From positions 1-42,282 of the forward strand of contig JAQUVV010000003.1 of assembly GCA_028693195.1 (NCBI GenBank): 42,282 bases of DNA. The letters run 5' to 3'. Source of the DNA: Lachnospira sp. (GTDB lineage: Bacteria; Bacillota; Clostridia; Lachnospirales; Lachnospiraceae). The notes under the pieces were generated by a model, which was given only the letters and a program-made list of their open reading frames with translations, had not been told where the DNA came from and ran no database searches. Positions 5,751 through 24,511 of the stretch are shown here, piece by piece (the stretch's first letter is position 1; every line of letters begins with the position of its first letter). The position numbers and the translations under genes are program-made.

Positions 5751-6060
5751 TATACACCCCGTTGACGGATTGAACGCTAACTGTGAGCGAGACACAGGCG
5801 GGGTACTTTGATTAGTTCTTTGACATGCTGATAAAGCTTGTTCGGTGTAATTCATAAGCCGTGAACGAGTGAACAAAAGATAACGCACACAAGCAAGTCG
5901 GGGCTTGCAAAATGTGCAATGTATAACAATTAATAGAAAACACCGCAAAATCGTCTTTGAGCAGTAAGCATACGAGTTAGGCGTTCGTACTGTTTTCGAT
6001 CTAATATAACCCGTGCCGAGCTTGTGATAAGGGTTCTGCTCTTCGATGAGAGCACGGGTA
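5751..6060 (+). other. Non-coding region with several hairpins
   Basis: About 330 bases between genes show no convincing ORF but repeated base-pairing potential. Examples: ACCCCG (5756-5761) with CGGGGT (5799-5804) enclosing CTGTG (5781-5785)/CACAG (5793-5797); GCAAG (5893-5897)/CTTGC (5904-5908) inside GCAC (5885)/GTGC (5914); and an 8-bp perfect stem ACCCGTGC (6009-6016)/GCACGGGT (6052-6059) enclosing GAGC/GCTC, 22 bases before the next start codon. None has a terminator T-run. It could be one or more phage RNAs or leader elements. Confidence 0.5.
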
Positions 6061-10330: not shown

Positions 10331-10384
10331 ATGGAAAAATTTTTAGGTCAAGCAATCTTGGAAAAAGATAGATGGCAATTTTGA
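10331..10384 (+). CDS. Possible 17-residue leader ORF
   Basis: ATG 10331 to TGA 10382-10384 encodes MEKFLGQAILEKDRWQF and overlaps the ATG of the next gene (10372) in another frame. It could couple translation. Low confidence. Confidence 0.3.
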   Translation: MEKFLGQAILEKDRWQF

Positions 10385-10701
10385 AGAATTTCAAAGCAAA
10401 AGTCAATCAGGACATTAAGAGGAATAAAGAAGAGAATGGGAGCAGGGTAGATAACTATTCGCAAGTTGTTGATTCTAACCTGCCAAAGTCTTTCAAACTG
10501 TTTATCCCGCTTTTTAAAGGCTTTGCCTGTGAAGAGATAGAAGTCGAGATTTATGCAGATGTAGACGGACGTAATGTTTCTCTGTCTCTAGTCTCTGCCG
10601 GTGCTAATGAAGCGATTGAGGAATATAAAAACAGAGTCATTGATGAGCAGCCTGATGCTATCAGAGACATTGCTCCTGATATTGTGATTATTGAAGTATA
10701 A
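10372..10701 (+). CDS. Hypothetical protein
   Basis: 109 residues. Basic N-terminus (MAILKNFKAKVNQDIKRNKE), beta-type middle (KLFIPLFKGFACEEIEVEIY) and acidic C-terminus (DIAPDIVIIEV). No recognised family. Located between the NinB-like and NinG genes. Confidence 0.6.
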   Translation: MAILKNFKAKVNQDIKRNKEENGSRVDNYSQVVDSNLPKSFKLFIPLFKGFACEEIEVEIYADVDGRNVSLSLVSAGANEAIEEYKNRVIDEQPDAIRDIAPDIVIIEV

Positions 10702-10727
10702 AGGAGGTGTTTCCATTGAATTAGTTA

Positions 10728-10785
10728 GCAGCCCCGAAAATGAGAATTATAAAATGTAGAAGTATTACTTAGTACTCGGGGCTGC
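10728..10785 (+). repeat. 10-bp perfect hairpin
   Basis: GCAGCCCCGA (10728-10737) is perfectly complementary to TCGGGGCTGC (10776-10785), enclosing a 38-base AT-rich loop. No T-run follows. It ends four bases before the tRNA-like element and may be part of the same RNA. Confidence 0.7.
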
Positions 10786-10789
10786 AAGC

Positions 10790-10870
10790 GGGCGGTTATA
10801 TTTTCGTTGGCTGAAATTACGGTGAGGTGAGCAATATTCCGTGAGGCTGGTTCGACTCCGGCACCGTCCA
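10790..10870 (+). tRNA. tRNA-like element, amino acid undetermined
   Basis: The 7-bp acceptor stem GGGCGGT (10790-10796) pairs with ACCGTCC (10863-10869), directly abutting a 5-bp T arm GCTGG-TTCGACT-CCGGC, with discriminator A. The antisense frame reads DGAGVEPAS, a well-known signature of spurious ORFs over tRNA genes. The D arm is weak. The anticodon-arm position forms TACGG/CCGTG but encloses 16 rather than 7 bases, so no anticodon can be assigned. Interpretation: degenerate tRNA, tRNA with a 9-base insertion, or tRNA mimic. Confidence 0.5.
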
Positions 10871-10887
10871 CACTATACAGATTTATT

Positions 10888-11352
10888 ATGCTATACAAGT
10901 ACAAGAAGAAAAAAGACAAACCTTTGTCTGATAAGGCAGGGGTGAGAGTTAAGAAGAAGCCGGATTATAAGAAGAAGCTGGATGAAGTTTTCTCAAAATA
11001 TATCCGGCTTAAATATGCAATGCCGAACGGGATGTGCAAGTGTATAAGTTGTGGCTCTTTCAAGCATTGGAAGGAAATTCAAAACGGGCATTATATGTCA
11101 AGGCGGTATATGTCAACCCGTTTTGATGAAGATAACTGCCGACCGCAATGTGTGGCTTGCAATATATTCAATCAAGGTAATGCGCAGATGTATAGACGTG
11201 GGCTTATAGCCCAGATCGGAGAACAGCGGGTGGACTTAGTAGAATATAAAGCAAAGAACACTTCTAAACATTATACATATTTTGAGTATAAGGAATTATT
11301 TAAATACTATTCCGTTTTAGTGGATAAATTAAGAAAGGAGAAAGGAATATGA
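10888..11352 (+). CDS. ninG: NinG-like recombination protein
   Basis: 154 residues. Basic N-terminus, then zinc-binding-like CKCISC (~49-54), the NinG/Rap core QNGHYMSRRYMSTRFDEDN and QCVACN, followed by GNAQMYRRGL. NinG (Rap) nucleases resolve recombination intermediates in lambda-type recombination. It fits the ERF/exonuclease/NinB set upstream. It overlaps the next gene by ATGA. Confidence 0.85.
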   Translation: MLYKYKKKKDKPLSDKAGVRVKKKPDYKKKLDEVFSKYIRLKYAMPNGMCKCISCGSFKHWKEIQNGHYMSRRYMSTRFDEDNCRPQCVACNIFNQGNAQMYRRGLIAQIGEQRVDLVEYKAKNTSKHYTYFEYKELFKYYSVLVDKLRKEKGI

Positions 11353-11546
11353 AACTAACAGATGAAAGCCCTATGCCTTTTGGAAAGTATAAAGGTGAGA
11401 AGATGGCCAATGTACCTGCATCATATCTAAAGTGGATTTATGACGAATGGACATTACCGAATCCGCGTTCTGGGTTTGTTAATAACGATGTAAAAGAATA
11501 TATTGAAGAAAATCTTGATGTTATTCAAGAGGAGATAATAGAGTAG
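11349..11546 (+). CDS. DUF3820 protein
   Basis: 65 residues. The core PMPFGKYKGEKMANVPASYL followed by KWIYDEW is the DUF3820 signature; the motif is also found attached to exonucleases. It lies between NinG and the helicase with overlapping ends. Predicted accessory DNA-metabolism protein. Confidence 0.8.
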   Translation: MKLTDESPMPFGKYKGEKMANVPASYLKWIYDEWTLPNPRSGFVNNDVKEYIEENLDVIQEEIIE

Positions 11547-11551
11547 TGGGC

Positions 11552-13759
11552 ATGTTTAAGCTTCGAGATTATCAGCAGGCTGCATCCGATAAGGCTGTAG
11601 CCTTTTTTATGGACAAAAAGAAAGACCATAACGCTATCATGGTTTTGCCTACAGGATGCCATGCAAAAGGTTCTAAAATCCTAATGTATGACGGTTCAAT
11701 CAAGTATGTTGAAGATGTAAAAGTCGGAGATGAACTTGTTGGCGATGATGGTAGTAAACGCACAGTATTGGAACTTCATAGAGGGGTAGATAAGCTTTAT
11801 GAGATTACACCAATAAAAGGTGAGTCATTTATCGTAAATGGAGGTCACATACTTTCTTTGTATAAAACGAATGAGGGTAAGAACTTCCCATCATGTATGC
11901 CGAGGGTTGACGAAATTTCCGTAGATGAATATCTTAAAACAAGCAACAATTACAAACATCTTCATAAGTTAAGAAAACCGGAATTTGTAGATTTCGGCAA
12001 CGAAACAAAGTCTGTGATTGAGCCTTATTTCCTTGGTCTTTATCTTGGTGACGGTTGTTCTGTTAATGGTATTGATATAACCTCTCAACGGAAAGAAGTG
12101 GAGGGTTTTCTATATTCTTTCGCTGCAAGGTATGGTATGAAAGTAAGAAAAGCCACAAAGAAAAATAATTTAGCTTCTACTTACAGCCTTTCAAATATTA
12201 AAGTCAGCCGTTCAAATCCTAACCCAATTATAGTATTCTTGGACGAATTGGGGCTTACAGGATTGACTTCTGCGTTCAAATTCATACCAACTCATTATAA
12301 GACGGCTTCAAAATGCGATAGATTAGAATTGCTTGCAGGATTGCTTGATACAGATTCCTATTACGATAACAACAAAAACACCTATGAATATTGCACCAAA
12401 TCAGAGCAACTGGCAGATGATATAATATTCTTATGTCGTTCTCTTGGTCTTTTCTGCGGAAATAAAACATGGAAAATAGTAAATGGTGAAACGTATTATC
12501 GTATGTCGATAACTGGAGAACTTGACATGATACCTACCAAAGTTAAAATCAGAAAAGGAAAGCCACGTTTACAAAAGAAAAATGTTCTTGTAACAGGATT
12601 TACAGTAAAATACTTAGGACGTGGTAATTATTATGGCTTTACGATTGATGGTAATCATTTATACTGCGATGGTCAATTTTTCATACACCATAACAGCGGA
12701 AAGAGCCTTATTATAGCAGATATAGCTTCTAGGCTTAAAGGTCACACTTTAGTATTTCAGCCGTCACGTGAAATTCTGGAGCAGAACTACAAAAAGCTAT
12801 GTTCTTATGGAATACTAGACTGCTCTATTTATTCAGCTTCTTTTAACTCTAAGCAAATAAATAGAATAACATTTGCCACGATAGGAAGCGTTAAAAGTAA
12901 ACCTGACCTGTTTACTCATTTTGAAGCTATAATCATAGATGAATGCCATTTAGTCAACCCTAAAGATGGAATGTATAAAACATTCCTAGAAACAGTTACA
13001 TGCAAGGTATTAGGGCTTACAGCCACTCCTTATCGTTTAAGTTCATCACAAGGATTTGGTTCAATGTTGAAGTTTATCACCCGCACCCGTCCGGCCATCT
13101 TCAAAGAGGTGATTTATCAGGTGCAAATATCTACCCTTTTGGATATGGGGTATCTCTCAAAACTGAACTATTATCCGATGAATCCGATTGGATGGAACGA
13201 ACTCAATTTAAAGGTGAATACTACCGGTGCCGATTATACGGACAAATCAGTACAAAAAGAGTATGAACGAATAGACTTCTATAGCTATCTTGTTCATATT
13301 GTCCAGAGACTGATGAATCCTAAAACAGGAGGAAAACGGAAAGGCATATTGGTATTTACTCGGTTTCTGAAAGAAGCGGAGCGATTAACGTGGTCCATAC
13401 CTGGTTGTGCTATCGTCTCAGGAGATACCCCTAAGGGTGAACGTGAAAGAATTTTGGAGGCGTTCAAATCAGGTGAAATACAGGTAGTGGCGAATGTCGG
13501 TGTATTGGTTTGCGGATTCGATTACCCAGAGCTAGACACAATTGTTATTGCACGTCCTACCATGTCATTAGCACTATATTACCAAATAGTAGGCAGAGCC
13601 ATTAGGCCACATCCGGACAAGAAAGAAGGCTGGATAGTTGATTTGGCCGGAAACATAAATAGATTTGGGAAAGTAGGAGATTTGAAGTTGGTAGATGGTG
13701 GTAATGGAAAATGGGCTGTTTACTCTAGGGGCAGACAGTTAACTAATATAAGATTTTAA
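11552..13759 (+). CDS. SF2 DEAD/DEAH-like helicase, interrupted by an intein
   Basis: Precursor of 735 residues from ATG 11552 (MFKLRDYQQAASDKAVAFFM); a GTG at 11546 would add two residues. The intein occupies residues 36-381; splicing would give a 389-residue helicase. Extein motifs: Q-like motif and Walker A (LPTG^SGKSLI, interrupted after PTG), DEAH box as IIIDECH, motif III LTATPYR, and motif VI YYQIVGRAIRPHP. Compact UvsW/RecG-like SF2 helicases of this size act in phage recombination-dependent replication. Because Walker A is split, the protein cannot bind ATP until the intein is removed. Confidence 0.9.
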   Translation: MFKLRDYQQAASDKAVAFFMDKKKDHNAIMVLPTGCHAKGSKILMYDGSIKYVEDVKVGDELVGDDGSKRTVLELHRGVDKLYEITPIKGESFIVNGGHILSLYKTNEGKNFPSCMPRVDEISVDEYLKTSNNYKHLHKLRKPEFVDFGNETKSVIEPYFLGLYLGDGCSVNGIDITSQRKEVEGFLYSFAARYGMKVRKATKKNNLASTYSLSNIKVSRSNPNPIIVFLDELGLTGLTSAFKFIPTHYKTASKCDRLELLAGLLDTDSYYDNNKNTYEYCTKSEQLADDIIFLCRSLGLFCGNKTWKIVNGETYYRMSITGELDMIPTKVKIRKGKPRLQKKNVLVTGFTVKYLGRGNYYGFTIDGNHLYCDGQFFIHHNSGKSLIIADIASRLKGHTLVFQPSREILEQNYKKLCSYGILDCSIYSASFNSKQINRITFATIGSVKSKPDLFTHFEAIIIDECHLVNPKDGMYKTFLETVTCKVLGLTATPYRLSSSQGFGSMLKFITRTRPAIFKEVIYQVQISTLLDMGYLSKLNYYPMNPIGWNELNLKVNTTGADYTDKSVQKEYERIDFYSYLVHIVQRLMNPKTGGKRKGILVFTRFLKEAERLTWSIPGCAIVSGDTPKGERERILEAFKSGEIQVVANVGVLVCGFDYPELDTIVIARPTMSLALYYQIVGRAIRPHPDKKEGWIVDLAGNINRFGKVGDLKLVDGGNGKWAVYSRGRQLTNIRF
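11657..12694 (+). mobile_element. Intein with LAGLIDADG endonuclease in the helicase P-loop
   Basis: 346 residues from Cys1 (CHAKGSKILMYDGSIKYVED) to a terminal His-His-Asn, followed by extein Ser. Splicing blocks visible: A (VKVGDELVGDDG), B-like (FIVNGGHILSL), F/G (GFTIDGNHLYCDGQFFIHHN). Two LAGLIDADG-type motifs, FLGLYLGDG and LLAGLLDTDS, keep their aspartates, so homing activity is plausible. It is colinear with the intein at 22298-23323 (shared KVGD, VN..HILSL, LGL.LGDG, LELLAGLLDTD, ..HN). Confidence 0.93.
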
Positions 13760-19549: not shown

Positions 19550-19644
19550 AATCATCTAAATAGCGAACAATTGGCAAAAGGTGCGCTATGCACGTTTTAA
19601 TAATTAGCCCTTGGGCTTGGTATGTAGTATCTTTGAGGTACTAT

Positions 19645-19717
19645 CGCGGGGTAGAGCAGTGGTCAGCTCGCTACTTTGACTTGGTAGAGGTCGGTGATTC
19701 GAATTCATCCCCCGCAA
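19645..19717 (+). tRNA. Initiator-like tRNA with anticodon GAC
   Basis: Complete 73-base cloverleaf. Acceptor CGCGGGG/CCCCGCA leaves C1 opposite A72 unpaired, with six GC pairs. The D stem GAGC/GCTC has A11:U24. The anticodon stem CTACT/GGTAG has loop TTGACTT (U33 present, anticodon GAC, valine codons GUC/GUU, unusual U37). The T arm is GGTGA-TTCGAAT-TCATC, discriminator A, followed by CTA. The C1xA72 mismatch and purine11:pyrimidine24 pair are hallmarks of bacterial initiator tRNA; the three G:C pairs of the initiator anticodon stem are missing. Possibly a converted copy of the host tRNA-fMet. Confidence 0.85.
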
Positions 19718-19747
19718 CTATTAAATTATAGACTAAATATCACGATT

Positions 19748-21686: not shown

Positions 21687-22220
21687 ATGGCAAGAAGTGA
21701 ATCTAAAGATACAGCAAAGAGCAATAAGGGAAGAAAACCCAAATTTGATTACACAGGAGAAGAGTTCCTTTCCTCTGTGGAATCATTTGCAAAGAAAGGA
21801 TTCACGGATAAAGAGATTGCTTATGCTTTGGGTATAGCTCCGCAAAGATTTTGTGAGAAGAAGAGTTTGCACCCGGAATTACGTGAAGTCTTAGCGCGCG
21901 GGCGGGCGACAATTAACGCAGCGGTAAGGGCAAAATTCCTTGCAATGGCTATTGGTGGTATTAAGACAAAGAGTGTTACTAAGCGTAAACTGAAAGATAT
22001 TAATGGGGATTATACGGGCGATGAAGAAATCCAGAGTGTAGAAAGTGAGCTGGCTCCAAGTCTTCAGGCTATGTCGGTCTGGTTATACCATCATGACGAA
22101 GAGTGGAGAAAGATTGAACGAAAGCAGGATGAAGATGCCAGCGATATTCCTACAGATATAAAGCAAGGCGTTGATATTGATTCTTGGATTAAGGAGCAGG
22201 TGAAAGGAGACGGAAAATGA
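21687..22220 (+). CDS. terS: Terminase small subunit
   Basis: 177 residues from ATG 21687 (MARSESKDTAKSNKGRKPKF). A helix-turn-helix region (GFTDKEIAYALGIAPQRFCE) and helical core, basic/acidic tail. It overlaps the large-subunit gene by ATGA. Role: recognition of packaging DNA. Confidence 0.82.
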   Translation: MARSESKDTAKSNKGRKPKFDYTGEEFLSSVESFAKKGFTDKEIAYALGIAPQRFCEKKSLHPELREVLARGRATINAAVRAKFLAMAIGGIKTKSVTKRKLKDINGDYTGDEEIQSVESELAPSLQAMSVWLYHHDEEWRKIERKQDEDASDIPTDIKQGVDIDSWIKEQVKGDGK

Positions 22221-24511
22221 TTACCCCACAGGCAATTTACCATCCGTTATACAATGACAAGGAGAAGTTTATAATTCTTATTACCGGTGGTCGTGGGTGC
22301 GAGACTCCTACGCAAGAAATCATAATGTCTGATTTGACAATAAAGCAAATCAAGGATATTAAAGTTGGAGATTGTGTCATGGGTGACGATGGAACACCTC
22401 GCAATGTTCTTGCTACTATAAAAGGAAGAAGTGAAATGTTCCGTGTCAGACAAACAAGTGCAGAAGATTACCTTGTAAATGATGCGCATATCCTTAGTTT
22501 AAAGAAAAGCCAAGCATCTATAAACCAAGGGAGATACAATGAATTTAAAGAATACACAGATATGCGTGTTACTGACTATTTAAATCGCAGCAATCGTTTC
22601 AAGGAGCACTTTAGAGGGTACAAGGCAAATTCAATTCCTTATGAGGAGAGATTAGTTGAATTAGATCCATATTTGCTCGGCTTATGGTTGGGTGACGGTA
22701 CAAGCATATTTCCGCAAATAACAACACCGGATGTTGAGATTGAACAATACCTTAGAGAGTATGTAGAAAATCACAATCTACATCTTTCAATCAACGGAGT
22801 AAAAGGTAAAGCAAAGACATTCCGACTTGCTAAAAACGGAGGACTGACGAATCCTATCATGGAAATTCTTCGCCATTATGATTTGATTGGGAATAAACAT
22901 ATTCCACAAGAATACATATCAAATAGCGAAAAAGTACGTCTTGAATTACTTGCAGGGCTGCTTGATACCGATGGAACAATGTCTTTTAATGGGTACGAAA
23001 TTACGCAAAAGAGTGAAAAACTTGCAAGGCAAATAAAGTATGTTGCAGATACTCTTGGCTTCAGAACAAGCATCAACGAGAGGAATGCGCGTTGTAACGT
23101 GAAAGATTGTGGTAAGGTTTTTCGTGTACATATCAATGGTGATACATGGAAAATACCTTGTAAGGTGAAAAGGAAAATTGTGAATAAGACTGATGTTCAC
23201 AAGAATAAAGATTGGCATTTATCACAATTAACGATAGAATATGCAGGAATTGGAGATTGGTGTGGTATTTATCTTGACGGGAACCAACGCTATTTGCATT
23301 CTGATGGAACAGTCACGCATAATTCAGGCAAATCATTCAATGCATCTACCTTTATCGAGCGTCTGACATTTGAAATGACTCCTGCCGAGAAGATAGTTCA
23401 TCAGATTCTTTATACCCGTTACACAATGGTTTCCGCTCACATGTCTATCATCCCCGAAATGATGGAGAAGATAGAGCTGGATGGAACAACGAAATATTTT
23501 AAGACTACCAAGACGGATATAGTCAACAGAATGACTAACAGCCGTATCATGTTTCGGGGTATCAAAACCTCATCAGGGAATCAGACGGCAAAGCTGAAAT
23601 CCATTCAAGGCATAACGACTTTTGTCTGTGATGAAGCGGAGGAGTGGACTAATGAGGAGGAATTTGATAAGATCATGCTCTCCATTCGTAAGAAGGGTAT
23701 TCAGAACCGGATTATCATCATAATGAACCCTTGTGATTCCAATCACTTCATCTATAAAAAATACATTGAGAAAACTCATAAACAGGTAGAAATTGACGGT
23801 GTTCAGGTGCAAATCTCCACTCATCCAAACGTATTACACATTCACACCACTTACCTTGATAATATGGAGAATCTTTCTCCTGAGTTCTTGAAAGAGGTTC
23901 AGGATATGAAGGTGAGCAACCCCGAAAAGTACGCCCATGTGGTTATCGGTCGTTGGGCAGATGTTGCCGCGGGTGCTGTGTTCAAGAAGTGGGGTATTGT
24001 TGATGAATTTCCACCTTATGCGAAAAAGGTTGCTATAGGTCAGGACTTCGGTTATACGCACGATCCGTCGGCTTCCATTCGTTGCGGTATCGTTGACAAT
24101 GCTTTGTATCTGGATGAAGTTGACTATCGAACTGGATTATTGTCTTCTGACATTATTAAAACGCTCCGTCCGTGGGGATTGAAAGTATATGCAGATAGTG
24201 CCGATCCCCGGCTGATTCAGGAAATACACAACGGTGGTATTACCATCTATGCAACGGAGAAAGGTGCCGGATCAATCAATGCCGGTATTGACAAAATGCA
24301 AAGCATGGAGATATTTATCACTAAGAGGTCTTATAATCTGATAAGAGAGTTTAGAAACTATGTATGGGCAAAGGACAAAGACGGGAACTATATCAATGAG
24401 CCGGAGGATCACGATAACCACGGGATCGACGCTGCCCGATATTATTGTTTGTGTGCCCTCTTAGGTAAGATTCAGAAGCCTAAAGATTTAACAGGAATAT
24501 TCACACATTAA
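22217..24511 (+). CDS. terL: Terminase large subunit, interrupted by an intein
   Basis: Precursor 764 residues; the intein spans residues 28-369 and the spliced protein would be 422. Extein motifs: Walker A ITGGRG^SGKSFN interrupted between G and S, Walker B TFVCDEAEEW, coupling motif IIIIMNPCDSNHF, then RNase H-like nuclease residues in IGQDFGYTHDPSASIR, VYADSADPRLI and DNHGIDAARYY. This is the Terminase_3 type. It is the packaging motor and nuclease. As in the helicase, ATP binding requires intein excision. Confidence 0.93.
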   Translation: MITPQAIYHPLYNDKEKFIILITGGRGCETPTQEIIMSDLTIKQIKDIKVGDCVMGDDGTPRNVLATIKGRSEMFRVRQTSAEDYLVNDAHILSLKKSQASINQGRYNEFKEYTDMRVTDYLNRSNRFKEHFRGYKANSIPYEERLVELDPYLLGLWLGDGTSIFPQITTPDVEIEQYLREYVENHNLHLSINGVKGKAKTFRLAKNGGLTNPIMEILRHYDLIGNKHIPQEYISNSEKVRLELLAGLLDTDGTMSFNGYEITQKSEKLARQIKYVADTLGFRTSINERNARCNVKDCGKVFRVHINGDTWKIPCKVKRKIVNKTDVHKNKDWHLSQLTIEYAGIGDWCGIYLDGNQRYLHSDGTVTHNSGKSFNASTFIERLTFEMTPAEKIVHQILYTRYTMVSAHMSIIPEMMEKIELDGTTKYFKTTKTDIVNRMTNSRIMFRGIKTSSGNQTAKLKSIQGITTFVCDEAEEWTNEEEFDKIMLSIRKKGIQNRIIIIMNPCDSNHFIYKKYIEKTHKQVEIDGVQVQISTHPNVLHIHTTYLDNMENLSPEFLKEVQDMKVSNPEKYAHVVIGRWADVAAGAVFKKWGIVDEFPPYAKKVAIGQDFGYTHDPSASIRCGIVDNALYLDEVDYRTGLLSSDIIKTLRPWGLKVYADSADPRLIQEIHNGGITIYATEKGAGSINAGIDKMQSMEIFITKRSYNLIREFRNYVWAKDKDGNYINEPEDHDNHGIDAARYYCLCALLGKIQKPKDLTGIFTH
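22298..23323 (+). mobile_element. Intein with LAGLIDADG endonuclease in the terminase P-loop
   Basis: 342 residues from Cys1 (CETPTQEIIMSDLTIKQIKD) to THN, followed by extein Ser. Splicing blocks: IKVGDCVMGDDG, DYLVNDAHILSL, and YLDGNQRYLHSDGTVTHN. LAGLIDADG motifs YLLGLWLGDG and LLAGLLDTDG retain the acidic residues. Homologous along its full length to the helicase intein at 11657-12694. Confidence 0.93.

Follow-up and report, generated by a model that had tools for sequence, protein, structure and literature searches.

The use of tRNAs to punctuate genes is best known from mitochondria. RNase P also cuts mRNAs, tmRNA, 4.5S RNA and the phage C4 RNA, and the enzyme has a model substrate in an acceptor stem joined to a T stem-loop (PMC11143913). 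The element described here has its nearest known kinds in tRNA punctuation, RNase P cleavage of operon mRNAs, tmRNA and the phage C4 RNA. According to an annotation guide, anticodon loops consist of precisely seven nucleotides with very few exceptions (PMC9897764). The window, which is the whole 42,282-nucleotide stretch of DNA that was analysed, contains a hairpin and a tRNA-like element with an anticodon loop of 16 nucleotides directly upstream of a ninG gene.

All of the features lie on the forward strand in the order upstream ORF, hairpin, tRNA-like element, 17-nt leader and ninG. The upstream cistron (10372–10701) is an ORF of 109 amino acids with no Pfam match that ends 26 nt 5' of the hairpin. 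The hairpin (10728–10785) is composed of a perfect GC-rich stem, in which GCAGCCCCGA (10728–10737) pairs with TCGGGGCTGC (10776–10785) at all 10 positions, and a 38-nt loop; folded as a whole, its energy is -21.5 kcal/mol. In place of the 3' U-tract of an intrinsic terminator, the hairpin is followed by a 4-nt spacer, AAGC (10786–10789), and the corresponding gap is mostly 2–9 nt in the relatives. The tRNA-like element (10790–10870, 81 nt) extends from GGGCGGT to ACCGTCCA, with a discriminator A at 10870. Its acceptor stem consists of GGGCGGT (10790–10796) and ACCGTCC (10863–10869) with 7/7 pairs, one of which is G3.U70, and the stem of its T arm (GCTGG TTCGACT CCGGC, 10846–10862) is paired at 5/5 positions. 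Between them are a weak D arm (ATT/AAT, 10800–10817) with GG in its loop and an anticodon arm (10819–10842) made of an ACGG/CCGT stem and the 16-nt loop TGAGGTGAGCAATATT (10823–10838). The sequence-only reading had described a 10-bp hairpin next to a tRNA-like fold with a 16-nt anticodon loop, and an acceptor stem and T arm that are intact and in register; this description is correct, coordinates included. The 17-nt leader (10871–10887) begins with C and leads into ninG (10888–11352; Pfam PF05766, E 1.1e-24), which encodes a Rap-like junction nuclease with its nearest homologues in Bacteroidales phages and prophages. The promoter motif TAnnTTTG is absent from the 60 nt upstream of the element; what lies between the two same-strand cistrons is an acceptor stem and T stem-loop with no promoter motif of its own. 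Together, the hairpin and tRNA-like element make up one intercistronic module between the upstream ORF and ninG.

On the 5' side of the hairpin, a strong Shine-Dalgarno-like stretch, AAAGGAGGTG (10700–10717), is unusual for Bacteroidota. A nearby frame with an ATT start would run for 14 codons through the 5' arm of the hairpin, and the two changes that the related sequence L003 presents there are synonymous. Another genome from the same genus has a 22-nt match, which covers only the Shine-Dalgarno-like stretch (10701–10722) and includes neither the hairpin nor the tRNA-like element.

Neither the hairpin nor the tRNA-like element arises by chance. Perfect stems of at least 10 bp with a GC content of at least 7/10 and a loop of at most 45 nt occur once in the window, namely as the hairpin at 10728–10785, and not at all in each of six shuffles. 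A strict scan for an acceptor stem and T arm produced two matches in the window, the element and a tRNA-Arg at 51–124, compared to a total of two in 40 shuffled windows. The element has the 7-bp acceptor stem and the TTCRANY T arm of a canonical tRNA, and its anticodon loop has 16 nt instead of 7. It was not called as a tRNA by ARAGORN, whose tmRNA search was also negative, nor by Rfam at the gathering score (RF00005 included); the top sub-threshold match to a tRNA-type family was tRNA-Sec (17.1 bits, E 2.4). Since the anticodon loop does not have seven nucleotides, the class to which the element belongs is largely invisible to tRNA finders and easily missed in annotation.

Covariation in homologues, on which the sequence-only reading had staked its fold, is present in the hairpin, the D stem, the T stem and the anticodon stem, as read by hand from a few relatives of the window element. 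Two of the close relatives, L003 and L004, are near-identical, and in L003 one pair of the hairpin is changed on both sides from C-G to T-A. L042, L044 and L249 have the same type of element as the window. From their sequences, an A-U pair of the D stem is G-C in L042 and L249, the ACGG/CCGT anticodon stem is replaced by CTGC/GCAG in L044, and a C-G pair of the T stem is U-A in L249, which is compensatory. Because L042 and L044 came from an exact search with the T arm and 3' acceptor strand as the query, their identity in these parts is a result of the selection; the size of the loop is not affected by it. In the relatives of the window element the loops are 14–17 nt long and none has 7, the length whose presence in relatives would have counted against the sequence-only reading; the proposal of a single tRNA broken by a 9-base insertion therefore had to be abandoned. 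The other part of the earlier interpretation, a tRNA-like element with features of tRNA processing, was retained, and an intercistronic processing element is preferred over a tRNA-like 3' terminus on a larger non-coding RNA since the layout fits it better.

An automatic consensus fold of the four sequences in the window group did not predict the ACGG/CCGT stem. In a nine-member family of 82-nt elements with 16-nt loops, the acceptor, D and T arms are paired in 100% of cells with two-sided changes at six pairs, and the anticodon stem is paired in 91% with one further two-sided pair. The fold as a whole thus has seven two-sided pairs and 97.9% of cells paired, and 0/500 shuffles were as high. 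An alternative variable-arm helix, which scarcely varies, fits the anticodon region of this family equally well.

It is well supported that the window element is one member of a widespread and recurrent class in Bacteroidales phages. The class comprises 42 phage elements, no more than 70% identical to one another and 64 to about 200 nt long, in which the acceptor stem and T arm are paired and there is no usable anticodon arm; chance probably accounts for a few of the longest ones. When run on the 1.33 Mb of 80 viral ninG loci, the strict scan obtained 79 matches, 63 of them distinct, compared to 0–3 in each of five shuffles; the 79 include some ordinary tRNAs and a few long matches that are probably chance, and because the scan selected for perfect pairing, the intact acceptor and T arms are partly by construction. 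Other elements upstream of ninG, with anticodon arms that are equally abnormal, are found in L009, L024, L025, L026, L029, L032 and the Bacteroides phage BS-TP2. The element upstream of ninG in L005 has a 38-nt loop, and those of L007 and L008 are about 203 and 175 nt long. At the other extreme, L012 has elements of 67 and 74 nt with loops of 6 and 4 nt, and the L109 element has a length of 64 nt. Among the ninG loci of Bacteroides and family genomes, an element is located upstream in 15 of the 29 examined, part of these being elements already counted, and the sole canonical-looking match at the 29 loci is doubtful. Many ninG loci have no element, several have several hundred bases between the element and ninG, and elements also precede small ORFs other than ninG. 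Pattern searches of 160 Bacteroides genomes, of the genus of the window and of plasmids gave no match. No description of the class was found in Rfam or in the literature searched, the coverage of which was weak for subscription papers and preprints.

The contig is probably misbinned in its MAG given its Bacteroidales-phage homologues, the sequence upstream of its tRNA-Arg and the rarity of NinG in the phylum of the MAG. That upstream sequence is TACCTTTG, in contrast to promoters of the TTGACA/TATAAT type at other tRNA genes of the MAG, and NinG matches were obtained in just 4 out of 399 genomes from this phylum. Elsewhere in the window, a helicase ORF (11546–13759) with Hint/LAGLIDADG domains contains an intein with a homing endonuclease. 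The homologues of a terminase ORF (22217–24511) match in two pieces, which suggests an insertion such as an intein. A DUF2693-FD RNA (RF02926) at 5756–5804 is likewise present in L114 and L132.

The class was compared to host tRNAs with cut-offs (-7 kcal/mol, and 8–35 or 10–35 nt) that were set after the first examples had been seen. A compact hairpin of -7 kcal/mol or below that ends at most 9 nt upstream is present in 25 of the 42 non-canonical phage clusters and 3 of the 29 host tRNA clusters, and a comparison of upstream hairpin energies between the 42 and the 29 gave p = 7e-6. The window hairpin is outside the 25 because its loop exceeds the compact measure. Downstream, the ATG of an ORF with 40 or more amino acids is located within 10–35 nt in 20/42 phage clusters and 1/29 host tRNA clusters (p = 4e-5), the control for position being host tRNAs of which many are clustered and therefore have a lower chance of preceding an ORF. 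Approximately half of the class ends 8–35 nt before a start codon, often that of ninG, and a start codon at 10–35 nt is absent from approximately half of the 42 clusters. The Bacteroidota promoter motif TAnnTTTG occurs within 60 nt upstream of 2/21 gene-proximal elements compared to 10/19 tRNA genes of B. xylanisolvens. A C directly follows the discriminator in nearly every element, with 21/21 among the gene-proximal ones, compared to 12/12 tRNAs of B. xylanisolvens and 9/17 tRNAs of the MAG of the window; G3.U70 is present in 2/21 gene-proximal elements. In the family of the BS-TP2 13732 element, the hairpin is followed by a T-run and resembles an intrinsic terminator, so that the hairpin may lack a uniform role across the class.

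The window also contains an initiator-tRNA-like gene (19644–19718) with a C1.A72 mismatch and the anticodon GAC in the loop TTGACTT; several of the top other matches are annotated as tRNA-Met. The gene is also present in BS-TP2, G544 and L141 with an identical loop. A TAnnTTTG-type motif is found upstream in the window and BS-TP2, and with one mismatch in G544. An ORF starts approximately 17–30 nt downstream in the window, BS-TP2 and L141.

The preferred reading, which we hold at slightly better than even confidence, is that of a processing module of Bacteroidales phages that is located between cistrons, derives from a tRNA and does not decode. A single transcript would include the upstream gene and the module, whose acceptor stem, T arm and elbow would fold as in a tRNA. 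The probable mechanism is excision by enzymes of tRNA maturation: RNase P would cleave on the 5' side, at 10789/10790, and RNase Z or another tRNA 3' nuclease would cut near 10870. The upstream mRNA would be freed with a stable hairpin and a few bases at its 3' end, shielded from 3' exonucleases, and the ninG mRNA would be freed with a short 17-nt leader. The acceptor stem and T stem-loop are kept in the class and the decoding part is not; with decoding lost, the anticodon arm would be free to vary or to hold another structured RNA, as may be the case in many relatives. We infer each of co-transcription, cleavage, end protection, an effect on ninG and a function of the inserts. The same hairpin and tRNA look-alike, with differing middles, in front of genes suggests fake tRNAs that serve as RNA cutting marks or as carriers between genes. 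Weighing against a processing module are the T-run after the hairpin in the BS-TP2 13732 family, the clusters with no start codon at 10–35 nt, the ninG loci in which several hundred bases follow the element, the many ninG loci with no element, and the inserts, which would need no structure for processing alone and yet in some cases show compensatory changes.

As for the inserts, several pairs of elements have a common scaffold and unrelated inserts; in other pairs one insert is present again within a different acceptor stem. L007 and L008 are 100% identical in the 60 nt upstream, 96% in both halves of the shell and 92% in the 450 nt downstream on the ninG side, and their inserts have an identity of 55.6% compared to 55.0% when shuffled. 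L132 and L037 have about 90% of a 115-nt insert in common inside a different acceptor stem and T arm, and L114 and L142 have a 33-nt stretch in common at 94%. An alignment of L132, L037 and L250, which is of three sequences only, presents two-sided changes at three insert pairs and six pairs of the shell. Given these exchanges of scaffold and insert and the compensatory changes within inserts, at least some inserts may, tentatively, be structured RNAs that were moved between shells. Putative H-type pseudoknots were identified, by eye only, in the insert families BS-TP2/L110, L114/L142 and L132. As a tentative extension, the tRNA shell (acceptor stem, T arm and elbow) and the leading hairpin may form a socket for exchangeable structured inserts that replace the anticodon arm, with the host tRNA machinery excising them and the inserts acting in phage-host or phage-phage conflict. 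Separately, a sub-threshold match to a type-P1 twister ribozyme (40.5 bits, gathering 67.2) is located downstream of the tRNA-like element in L009 (2529–2595).

The insert cassettes that recur in different acceptor stems (L132/L037, L114/L142), the single shell with unrelated inserts (L007/L008) and the compensatory insert changes of L132/L037/L250 also argue for a trans-acting RNA, a reading that we consider rather unlikely. The tRNA shell would be a stabilizing and maturation scaffold, excision from the mRNA would be merely the way in which the RNA is made, and either the insert would be active or the mimic itself would, as a regulator or as a decoy for defence enzymes that target tRNAs. There are indeed defence enzymes with an action on the tails of tRNAs and contacts to the acceptor and T arms (PMC12851939). 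However, the window element has almost no insert, and same-strand placement just before start codons would be needless for an RNA that acts in trans.

That the elements are decayed and functionless phage tRNA genes is improbable. Their bodies do resemble tRNA-Leu and other tRNAs and their anticodon arms are degenerate, but compensatory change keeps the acceptor and T arms paired while the anticodon arm is lost, and neither the tight placement before genes nor the association with a hairpin is in keeping with decay. Still less probable is a cis-acting 5'-UTR regulator of ninG translation that, similar to the thrS operator, would bind an aminoacyl-tRNA synthetase or other tRNA-binding protein. 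The position of the element 17 nt before ninG agrees with such a regulator, as do the G3.U70 and A73 of the window acceptor stem, which we take to be an alanine-type identity, and the Leu-type shells that are common in the class. Since several types of tRNA shell and many acceptor stems precede the same gene, with G3.U70 in just 2/21, no single synthetase fits; a shared synthetase identity was rejected as the shells, G3.U70 and Leu-type ones among them, are too variable. A functional tRNA with a small intron is hardly credible: the extra length is at the anticodon loop, the usual site of introns, but several elements fall below the length of a tRNA or have loops of 4–6 nt (L012, 67 and 74 nt; L109, 64 nt), and a 9-nt insert cannot self-splice. 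Two other candidates were rejected. For a tmRNA, there was no ARAGORN call, and the element has only 81 nt with neither a tag reading frame nor the standard pseudoknots. For a remnant of an attachment site, the element is inside the phage and its stems are complete; the tRNA-Arg at 51–124 is a better candidate.

If the processing module is real, gut phages punctuate their genes with counterfeit tRNAs and borrow the tRNA-maturation enzymes of the host, and their swappable inserts would constitute a new group of structured RNAs from phages. With respect to known systems, the bodies of the elements are clearly derived from tRNA genes, and phage-encoded tRNA genes occur in the same phages; the elements differ in having no 7-nt anticodon loop and mostly no nearby TAnnTTTG. 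The tRNA-like domain of tmRNA also combines an acceptor stem and T arm with a replaced anticodon arm, and the window element has G3.U70 as well; however, the element is far shorter, no tag ORF was found and G3.U70 is mostly missing in the relatives. We know of no tRNA-derived body in the C4 antisense RNA of phages P1 and P7, which is likened to the window element by description. C4 is a phage RNA matured by RNase P (cited in PMC11143913), as predicted for the window element. In tRNA punctuation and in polycistronic mRNAs cut by RNase P, as known from mitochondria and bacterial operons (references in PMC11143913), a tRNA or tRNA-like fold is similarly located between cistrons, and its excision, predicted for the window element, frees mRNA ends. 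Compared to these, the phage element has no readable anticodon, it is preceded by a hairpin, and its relatives may carry a structured insert.
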